From assembly GCA_001767195.1 (NCBI GenBank), contig MEKU01000093.1, forward strand, positions 9,312 through 51,822: 42,511 bases of DNA, read 5' to 3'. Made by a program: the position numbers and the translations under genes. This document shows, one piece after another, positions 38,517-41,297 of this stretch. The notes beneath the pieces are model-generated. The model had not been told where the DNA came from. It saw only the letters and a list, made by a program, of their open reading frames with translations, and ran no database searches. Origin of the DNA: Acidobacteria bacterium RIFCSPLOWO2_02_FULL_67_21 (GTDB lineage Bacteria > Acidobacteriota > Vicinamibacteria > Vicinamibacterales > UBA2999). Every line of letters starts with the position of its first letter. The stretch's first letter is position 1.

Positions 38517-41297
38517 TCAGCGAAGGCGCGAGCGCCAGTCGACGAGCGTGACGGGACGCGCCAGGTCCCCTTCGCCGGGCATGTTGACGAGGATCCGCTG
38601 GCCGTCGGCTGACACGTCGTACGCATAGCCGCGCCCCGACTTCGCCCGGAGCTGAAACAGCGCAACCGGCTCCCCGGCGCCGACCGATGAGCCGCCCTTG
38701 ACGGGAACGGCCATGAGACGGCCGTCGGCCGCGACGTAGAACAGCTCGTCGCCGTCGCGACGCCATCGCGGCCACGATCCGCCCCGCGGCGAGACACGGG
38801 TACGGCTGCCGTATTGCGGGAACGGCGCCACGTAGACATCGGTGCGCCCGTTTTCGAACGACGTAAAGGCGACCCAGCGGCGGTCGGGCGAGAGCCTCGG
38901 AAGTGTCGCCTCGCGAATCGTCCTGAAATACGCAAAGGAGGGCCCGCCCGGCAGCATGCGCGCCCAGAGGTCGAAGTTGCCGCCGGCGGCCGCGCGCGGC
39001 TGATTGGTCTGATACAGCAGGTACCTCCCGTCGGACGACCAGTCGTACGCGATCTGATCGCCCTCGCCGGCGACGATCGCCACCTCGGTGCCCGTTCCGG
39101 CGGCCGCCTTCTGGTAGATGTCTTTCGTGCCGCTGCGGGTGGATGCGAAGAGGATGCGGCCGCCGTCCGGCGACCAGACCGGCGCCGTGTCGTCGGCGGC
39201 GTCGGAGGTCACACGCGTCTCCACCCCGCTCTCCACCTCGAGCAGCACGATGTCGCCGCTCTCCGCACGGGGAGCCCGAACGCTGACCGCCACGCGCGAC
39301 CCGTTCGGCGACAGGGCGACGTCGCCGTAATCGGCCGGCTCGCCGACCGTGCCCACCGGCAGACCGGTGCGGTCGAGCCAGACGAGCCGGGAACGCGCCG
39401 GATCCGATGCGGGCCCGACCTGGTAGGCCAGCACGCCGGCCGTCGACAGCGAGAACGCGCGCACGCCTTCGGTGCTTCCCGATGCCCCTCCACCGATCGG
39501 CAGCGCGTCCCCTCGTGTCTCGAGCGTCCGCTCGTCGAACGGCTGCACGGCAAGGGCATTGTCGCGGACGAAGAGGATGTATCCCTCAACCACCGCGGCG
39601 CGCGACGCGTTGGACAGGGCCGGCTGCCGAATGGCGGAGTCCTCGATCGACCCGGCATGAACGGCGGGCTCGCCGTCGCCGGACGGCAGAATCGTGTACA
39701 GGAACCGTCGTCCGTCGGACAGCACTACAGGCCACCCGTGCGCCGCCTCGCCCGACCGCAGGCCCGTGACCGGCGAGGCCGTCCCACCACTCGACGCCAC
39801 GCGATACAACGGACCGCCCTCGCCGTCGCGGGCAAACACCATTACATCGTCACCGCTCCACGCGCCCGGCGATGCCGCCTCGGCGTCGGTCACGACGGCC
39901 ACCTCGCCACCGTCGGCAGAAACCTTCCGCAGGGCGCCCTGCGCGAAGAACGCCACGAAGCGGCTGTCGGGCGACCAGAACGGAAATGCGGCGCCGTCGG
40001 TGCCGTCGAGCGGCCGCTCGTCGGTGACGGTCAGCGAACGGATCCAGAGCCGGCGCTGCCCGCTGCCGTCGACCGCCGTAAACGCGAGCCGTTGCCCATC
40101 GGGTGACAGCGCGAATTCATTCAAGGGACGATCGGGCATCGTCATCGTCGCCAGTGGTGCCGGGCGGGATTCCGGCACGGTACCGCTCCAGGCCGACTGC
40201 AGAATCCGCCGTGCCTCCGGAAAGATCAGGACGAGGAGGGCCACTGCCGCCACGGCGGCGATGACCACGACGGTCCGGCGGCCGGAGCGGGGCGAGGGCG
40301 CGGGCTCGTCGACGACAACGGCAGGCTCGGACTCGAACGTCTGTGGCGCCGCTGGAGGAGCGGCGTCGCGTGCAGGCGGAGGCGGCGGATCAACCGGAGC
40401 AGCCGGAGCAACCGGAGCAACCGGAGCAGCCGGAGCAACCGGAGCAGCCGGAGCGGCCGGCGCCGCCTGCTGCCACAAGGCGTGCAGCGCGCGCGCCGCA
40501 TCCTCGGCCGACGGACGGGCCGGCGGCGTCCGGCGCAGGCACATCTCGACGAGCCGGGTCAGCACGGGCGGCAGCTCGAGACCGGCCGGCAGCCGCGGCG
40601 CCTCGGCCCTGCCGACCGCGGTCATCGTCTCCACGGGCGTGTCGCCGCCAAACGCCCTGGCGCCGGTGAGCATCTCGAACACGATCGCGCCGAAGGTGAA
40701 CATGTCGGACTTCGAATCCGCGGCGGCGGCGCGGATCTGTTCGGGCGACATGTAGCTCGGTGTTCCGATCGCCGCTCCGGCACCGACGCCCTTGAAGCCC
40801 GCCAGCGCCGACTCGGCCTGCGTGACCGCCGCCAGGCCGAAGCCGGCCACCCGTACGCGCCCGTCGGCGCCGACGAGAATGTTCTCGGGCTTGAGGTCGC
40901 GATGCACGACGCCTTTTTCGTGGGCCGCCGCGAGCGCGTGCGCGATCTGCACGGCGTACTGCACGACCGTGCGCACGCGCAGCGGGCCGTCCCTGAACAC
41001 GTCGCGGAGCGTCCGGCCTTCGATCGGCTCCGAGATGATGTACGCGGCGTGCGCGTCGGTGCCGACGTCGTGCACGCTCAGGATGTTCGGGTGCGACAGA
41101 AGGGCCGCGGCCCGCGCCTCCTGCTCGAACTGCTTCAACTGCTGGGGATTGGCTCCAAACTCCGCCCGCAGCACGCGCATCGCGGCGTCGCGCTGGTGGT
41201 CGTGGTCGTGGACGCGATAGACGTCTCCGAATCCGGCGAGATCGAGACGGCCGCGGATCTCAAACGGGCCCAGACGTGCCCCGGGTGCCAGCGTCAT
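38517..41297 (-). CDS. TolB-propeller Ser/Thr kinase-like protein, probable pseudokinase
   Basis: 926 residues from ATG 41297. The kinase fold spans 10-275, then an Ala/Pro-rich linker (about 278-335), one membrane helix (342-360) and a C-terminal PD40/TolB-type beta-propeller (about 380-926; repeated SPDGRR, SPDSR and SPNGSR blades). HRDLKPEN (132-139) and GTPSYMSPEQ are intact. However, the ATP-binding lysine of the VAIK motif is Arg41 (AMRVL), the DFG aspartate is Gly152 (AGFG), and the glycine loop is altered (LDLAGFG). Loss of the lysine and the Mg-binding Asp predicts weak or no phosphotransfer. PknB-propeller proteins are abundant in Acidobacteria. This one may be a sensor or scaffold. 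Confidence 0.85.
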   Translation of the reverse strand: MTLAPGARLGPFEIRGRLDLAGFGDVYRVHDHDHQRDAAMRVLRAEFGANPQQLKQFEQEARAAALLSHPNILSVHDVGTDAHAAYIISEPIEGRTLRDVFRDGPLRVRTVVQYAVQIAHALAAAHEKGVVHRDLKPENILVGADGRVRVAGFGLAAVTQAESALAGFKGVGAGAAIGTPSYMSPEQIRAAAADSKSDMFTFGAIVFEMLTGARAFGGDTPVETMTAVGRAEAPRLPAGLELPPVLTRLVEMCLRRTPPARPSAEDAARALHALWQQAAPAAPAAPVAPAAPVAPVAPAAPVDPPPPPARDAAPPAAPQTFESEPAVVVDEPAPSPRSGRRTVVVIAAVAAVALLVLIFPEARRILQSAWSGTVPESRPAPLATMTMPDRPLNEFALSPDGQRLAFTAVDGSGQRRLWIRSLTVTDERPLDGTDGAAFPFWSPDSRFVAFFAQGALRKVSADGGEVAVVTDAEAASPGAWSGDDVMVFARDGEGGPLYRVASSGGTASPVTGLRSGEAAHGWPVVLSDGRRFLYTILPSGDGEPAVHAGSIEDSAIRQPALSNASRAAVVEGYILFVRDNALAVQPFDERTLETRGDALPIGGGASGSTEGVRAFSLSTAGVLAYQVGPASDPARSRLVWLDRTGLPVGTVGEPADYGDVALSPNGSRVAVSVRAPRAESGDIVLLEVESGVETRVTSDAADDTAPVWSPDGGRILFASTRSGTKDIYQKAAAGTGTEVAIVAGEGDQIAYDWSSDGRYLLYQTNQPRAAAGGNFDLWARMLPGGPSFAYFRTIREATLPRLSPDRRWVAFTSFENGRTDVYVAPFPQYGSRTRVSPRGGSWPRWRRDGDELFYVAADGRLMAVPVKGGSSVGAGEPVALFQLRAKSGRGYAYDVSADGQRILVNMPGEGDLARPVTLVDWRSRLR
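40386..40465. repeat. Short tandem repeat in the kinase linker
   Basis: Units of about 9 bp (accggagca / gccggagca) repeat here and encode the Ala-Pro-Val-Ala-Pro linker of the kinase-like protein. Such runs may vary in copy number between strains. Confidence 0.75.

Follow-up and report, generated by a model that had tools for sequence, protein, structure and literature searches.

A gene of the window (the whole stretch of 42,511 nucleotides from Acidobacteria bacterium RIFCSPLOWO2_02_FULL_67_21 that was analysed) encodes a propeller receptor whose kinase-like domain has lost the VAIK Lys and the DFG Asp and has kept the HRD Asp. With two of the three essential residues lost, the protein is by sequence definition a pseudokinase. 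We consider that it is probably a conserved, non-catalytic receptor of this type, in which the kinase fold has been kept as a docking or allosteric module, i.e. as a scaffold.

The reading frame is exact: it runs from the ATG at 41297 to the end of the stop codon at 38517 and has no internal stop. Pfam Pkinase matched residues 22–268 (146 bits for a cut-off of 31.7; 1.3e-42), which identifies a kinase fold, and a PD40 match was found C-terminal of this domain (1.3e-34). The order of the domains, kinase, Pro/Ala linker, one membrane helix and PD40/TolB-like propeller, is that of the propeller-receptor family (Table 1). A tandem repeat is present inside the linker coding region (40386–40460). 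An AlphaFold2 model was built on nine sequences (mean pLDDT 77, pTM 0.41; the relative placement of the domains in it carries no meaning). It shows a kinase domain whose two-lobed fold is preserved (Z up to 31), a disordered linker (residues 279–345 in the model), a single helix and a beta-propeller region. The match with TolB concerns residues 634–899 (2ojh, Z 29.0, 2.4 Å over 257 residues; 1crz, Z 27.2), residues 383–630 being hardly covered by the fold comparison. The propeller would lie outside the membrane, given an N-terminus inside. The initial annotation of this DNA had described a membrane-anchored protein with a large external propeller, and the helix together with the PD40/TolB-like region, seen by Pfam and in the model, agree with this description, including the retention of the propeller.

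Table 1. Features of the pseudokinase gene and of its neighbours (window coordinates).
Feature	Coordinates	Strand	Evidence or remark
Whole gene, 926-aa propeller-receptor pseudokinase	38517..41297	(-)	ORF and Pfam
Kinase-like domain, residues 8-275	40473..41276	(-)	Pfam Pkinase/PK_Tyr_Ser-Thr; model compared with PknA/PknB, Z about 29-31
Altered glycine loop, residues 19-24, DLAGFG for GxGGMG	41226..41243	(-)	Alignment
Arg41 codon at the VAIK Lys site (AAMRV)	41175..41177	(-)	Arg in 4/4 orthologues, Lys in 94/94 active relatives
Intact catalytic loop HRDLKPEN, residues 132-139	40881..40904	(-)	Alignment
GFG for DFG, Gly152-Phe153-Gly154	40836..40844	(-)	GFG in 4/4 orthologues
Activation segment, residues 153-188, GTPSYMSPEQ kept	40734..40841	(-)	Conserved Thr replaced by Val171; segment deleted in orthologue L022
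Pro/Ala-rich linker, residues about 276-341	40275..40472	(-)	Model pLDDT under 50; 42-49% identity between orthologues
Hydrophobic membrane helix, residues 342-370, Arg-Arg just before	40188..40274	(-)	Model helix and hydrophobic sequence
PD40/TolB-like propeller region, residues 383-926	38520..40151	(-)	Pfam PD40; TolB fold match
Downstream gene remnant, MDMPI_N/TIGR03083 maleylpyruvate isomerase-like	37849..38408	(-)	About 80 codons missing and frameshift, compared with intact G018 and G019 copies
DUF169 gene, conserved neighbour	36862..37569	(+)	
FAA_hydrolase gene, conserved neighbour	35927..36847	(+)	
Gentisate 1,2-dioxygenase remnant	35332..35762	(-)	C-terminal part only, two frames

Numbered from the ATG at 41297, the VAIK Lys is replaced by Arg41 and the DFG Asp by Gly152, the glycine loop reads DLAGFGDVY instead of GxGGMGEVY, and HRDLKPEN is intact, with His132, Arg133, Asp134 and Asn139 all retained; the initial annotation was correct on these four points. 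It had also proposed that the activation segment is kept, which holds for GTPSYMSPEQ but not for the conserved Thr, nor for orthologue L022, where the segment is missing altogether. In active relatives 94% of the residues at this Thr position are Thr; Val171 occupies it in the window protein, and Val and Ser in two orthologues. Arg41, HRDLKP and GFG are invariant in the four orthologues (window protein included), whose glycine loops read DLAGFG, EIAGLG, ELAGIG and NIPGFG. The HRD Asp is present in all four, and the alpha-C Glu60 and the catalytic-loop Asn in three each: in L022, whose gene is open over 888 aa, these two residues are Asp and His. In the other kinases aligned, which came from the order and from other fetched relatives and were drawn by similarity to the clade rather than as a census of kinases, the Lys, the alpha-C Glu, the HRD Asp, the catalytic-loop Asn and the DFG Asp are each retained in 94/94, indicating that the losses are far from chance and specific to the window clade. 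Sequencing error was ruled out as their cause by the presence of identical changes in four genomes, Arg41 and Gly152 being common to orthologues from three other genera.

Within the bacterial family of the window genome, 4 of the 43 genomes searched hold an orthologue, the window's own included, each in a different genus, out of 24 genera sampled. The three others (L020, L021 and L022) are 61–66% identical to the window protein over the full length; those relatives that have names in public records are Acidobacteriota metagenome-assembled genomes. A clean gap separates the scores of three full-length kinase domains of the clade (556–565 bits) from that of the next kinase (334 bits), and the next matches below the gap (L191–L194) have intact VAIK, HRD and DFG motifs. 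Above this gap, no further orthologue was found when the search was widened to the order (162 genomes), the class (4/193 genomes) and a 396-genome sample of the phylum, with thresholds that could miss low-scoring kinase domains carrying an L022-like deletion. A tree of 103 kinase domains places the four orthologues in one clade with a more decayed paralogue from the window genome, L011 (support 99/97; the bootstrap is not fully settled, and the four without L011, a long branch, are supported 77/70). This clade is nested among active propeller kinases, which points to one origin of the loss; on these sequences, the simplest reading would be a single loss of catalysis in the ancestor of the clade. 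Both the proposed membership of a large kinase-propeller family and the recurrence of the losses as a clade, which the initial annotation had put forward for checking, are thus borne out by the alignment and the tree.

Nei-Gojobori dN/dS ratios between orthologues were 0.24–0.32 for the kinase domain, 0.20–0.31 for the propeller and 0.24–0.56 for the linker/TM region. The kinase-domain values being close to those of the propeller, purifying selection acts on the dead domain much as it does on the sensor; in addition, this domain is 54–72% identical between orthologues, compared with 31–49% for the linker and TM region. These values, and motifs that are invariant rather than drifting, argue against a decaying domain, i.e. 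a protein in which the propeller and the membrane anchor are useful and the kinase part is disappearing. Such decay, which we regard as unlikely, would account for the deletion of the activation segment in L022, for the existence of paralogues with a further decayed N-lobe (L011 and L135; VAIQ/VLLQ, no HRD) and for the decayed neighbour genes in the window genome. It would also fit the N-lobe identity, which is 66–72% in the clade compared with 85% in an active pair taken as control, whose propellers have diverged to a similar extent (63%); this single comparison suggests a relaxation of some constraint, which is to be expected when ATP geometry has ceased to matter.

An atypical active kinase of the CASK/ILK1 kind, in which the HRD Asp would catalyse, Arg41 would pair with Glu60 and ATP would be used with Mn or without metal, as has been reported for CASK and ILK1, seems rather improbable. 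Mammalian CASK has GFG for DFG and retains activity; as far as is known, the beta-3 Lys is present in both ILK1 and CASK, in contrast to the window protein. Active GFG proteins do exist, such as the plant ILKs: ILK1 shares GFG for DFG with the window protein and differs from it in having retained activity (PMC9403797). DLHK pseudokinases, described in Pseudomonas aeruginosa, which keep HRD and have GFG, have been suggested to bind ATP (PMC12599244). The invariant HRD Asp and the Glu60 present in three of the four orthologues also speak for activity, and retention of this Asp in 4/4 and of Asn139 in 3/4 would be unexpected if catalysis were simply irrelevant. Against activity, the Lys, the Asp and the glycine-loop pattern were lost together, the activation-loop Thr is gone, and L022 lacks not only the activation segment but also the Glu of alpha-C and the Asn of the catalytic loop. 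There is also no substitute N-lobe lysine: the window protein and L020 have K55, L021 has none and L022 has K44. Since no N-lobe lysine is conserved across the clade, a WNK-like active kinase with a migrated lysine was ruled out.

The initial annotation had proposed a scaffold or a decoy, and the second proposal found no support: a dominant-negative or heterodimer partner of an active propeller kinase sharing its ligand is very unlikely. The order is rich in active propeller kinases, and the window genome has one (C32) whose propeller is 38% identical, but the pseudokinase is not consistently accompanied by an active paralogue of the propeller-kinase type. No counterpart of C32, the closest active propeller kinase of the window genome, was found at E<=1e-130 in G018 or G034; the active kinase frames of G018 (392, 512 and 582 aa only) are too short for a kinase plus such a propeller; and the only active kinases shared by all four genomes are of the L006 and L007 types.

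The preferred reading, a non-catalytic receptor, can be set against known kinases and pseudokinases. Active propeller receptors of Acidobacteriota (e.g. G000:C32, 921 aa, L058) have the same order of kinase, linker, membrane helix and propeller, and the kinase domain of C32 is 52–54% identical to that of the window protein; the active relatives keep the Lys, Glu, Asp, Asn and Asp, whereas in the window clade Arg and Gly stand at the sites of the Lys and the DFG Asp, and the glycine loop is altered. According to a 2025 review, which presents seven families and mentions neither Acidobacteriota nor propellers, bacterial pseudokinases have for the most part not been studied (PMC12599244). In the literature collection searched, no paper on Acidobacteriota kinase-propellers was found. 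No published family that we tested fits, and an unnamed match may exist among the 42 families of the atlas that underlies the review. DLHK proteins (P. aeruginosa Q9I0B5: AVLT / Hrdlrpas / GFG) resemble the window protein in keeping the HRD Asp, in lacking the ATP-binding Lys and in having GFG, but they have no transmembrane region, are often joined to helicase-type domains, and have Thr at the Lys site in Q9I0B5 (PMC12599244); the window protein has the hydrophobic helix 342–370. DYD pseudokinases, from actinobacteria and firmicutes, are likewise membrane-associated with Arg in place of Lys, but they lack the alpha-C Glu and carry a DYD motif (PMC12599244), whereas in the window protein Glu60 is present and the motif is GFG. 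The families that the section list of the review groups as diverged in all three motifs (PMC12599244) are not matched either, HRDLKPEN being intact in the window. EssB/YukC is a membrane pseudokinase, like the window protein, and has a non-catalytic scaffolding role (PMC12599244). It differs in having lost all three motifs and in being a component of type VII secretion. To our knowledge, EssB/YukC has no propeller.

Genes of gentisate catabolism are clustered at the locus in G034, G018 and G035, with a gentisate 1,2-dioxygenase (TIGR02272, 541 bits in G034), two FAA hydrolases, an outer-membrane barrel receptor and a symporter, of the aromatic-acid type in G034 and of the bile-acid type in G018 and G035. 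DUF169 is found in the cluster in G034 and G018, and the MDMPI_N/TIGR03083 gene in G018 and G035. In the window, the pseudokinase gene is intact beside decayed cluster genes; the dioxygenase and MDMPI-like remnants may result from true decay or from an assembly error. G035 and G034 belong to one genus, and in G035 the syntenic cluster is present without the pseudokinase gene, which shows that the gene is dispensable and that gene loss also occurs. Together with the decayed cluster of the window, this led us to reject a functional link with gentisate catabolism: the linkage is positional only, and provides a lead, not a function. The MDMPI-like gene was also rejected as a partner, since it adjoins the pseudokinase gene in three of four cases, is absent beside it in G034 and is present without it elsewhere.

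Degenerate kinases account for three of the six recognisable kinases of the window genome. A second, separate pseudokinase (G000:C94:100765-101655; L059:2763-3656, L010, L179) of about 297 aa consists of a kinase domain and a C-terminal membrane helix, with no propeller; in this tail-anchored protein K is replaced by R, HRD by HGA/HGG and DFG by AFD/AFE. Its orthologues are 51–75% identical and occur in 19 of the 43 family genomes, which makes it more widespread than the window clade, and graded intermediates exist across the order (HGDLRPDT, VALQ, VAVT). The third, a paralogue of the window clade that has decayed further, lies at G000:C107:11441-12424 (L011/L056) and is also found as L135 (G034:C49); L011 and L135 have an N-lobe-like domain (VAIQ/VLLQ, HPGVS/HGHLG, GGG/GFG) and a membrane helix, with an extra repeat-like C-terminal part in L135. 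In L060 (G000:C68:1-20000), several proteins in tandem read like a TIR-type domain joined to a PD40 propeller; these propellers are close to those of the kinase-propeller family, i.e. the same sensor with a different cytosolic domain.

Other genes of the window were noted in passing. A Cas4-Cas1 fusion (PADLOC Cas1g, 565 bits) and Cas2 are encoded at 3876-6094; by eye, genes left of the window, at G000:C93:3220-7222 (L223), resemble type I-G effector genes, and no CRISPR array was detected by repeat or 22-mer search in window positions 1-17600 and in the contig left of the window. At 2165-2907 and at L223:2000-2654 there are two pairs of small nucleotidyltransferase/HEPN-type genes that look like MNT-HEPN toxin-antitoxin systems. 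A gene run on the minus strand (22105-31781) gives the impression of a Tad/Flp pilus locus from its sequence.

The history that we propose is that a membrane Ser/Thr kinase with an outer propeller sensor would have lost its ATP-Mg chemistry in a single event, at the base of a small clade within one family of Acidobacteriota, its kinase fold being retained since as a non-catalytic part. The propeller would bind something periplasmic, the membrane helix would pass the state of the propeller inward, and the cytosolic kinase fold would act as a docking or allosteric module whose state follows that of the propeller. The activation segment is expendable in one orthologue (L022). Arg at beta-3 and GFG are compatible with nucleotide binding or weak transfer; a scaffold is the most plausible function class. 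The window protein is a new, well-controlled example of an already known kind, the bacterial pseudokinase, and since active counterparts of the same architecture exist in the same order, the consequences of losing catalysis could be compared directly between the two. More tentatively, the clade may represent a bacterial receptor pseudokinase family that has not been described before: in one Acidobacteriota lineage, an external propeller signal would be relayed without phosphorylation, via conformational coupling of the dead kinase domain to a partner.
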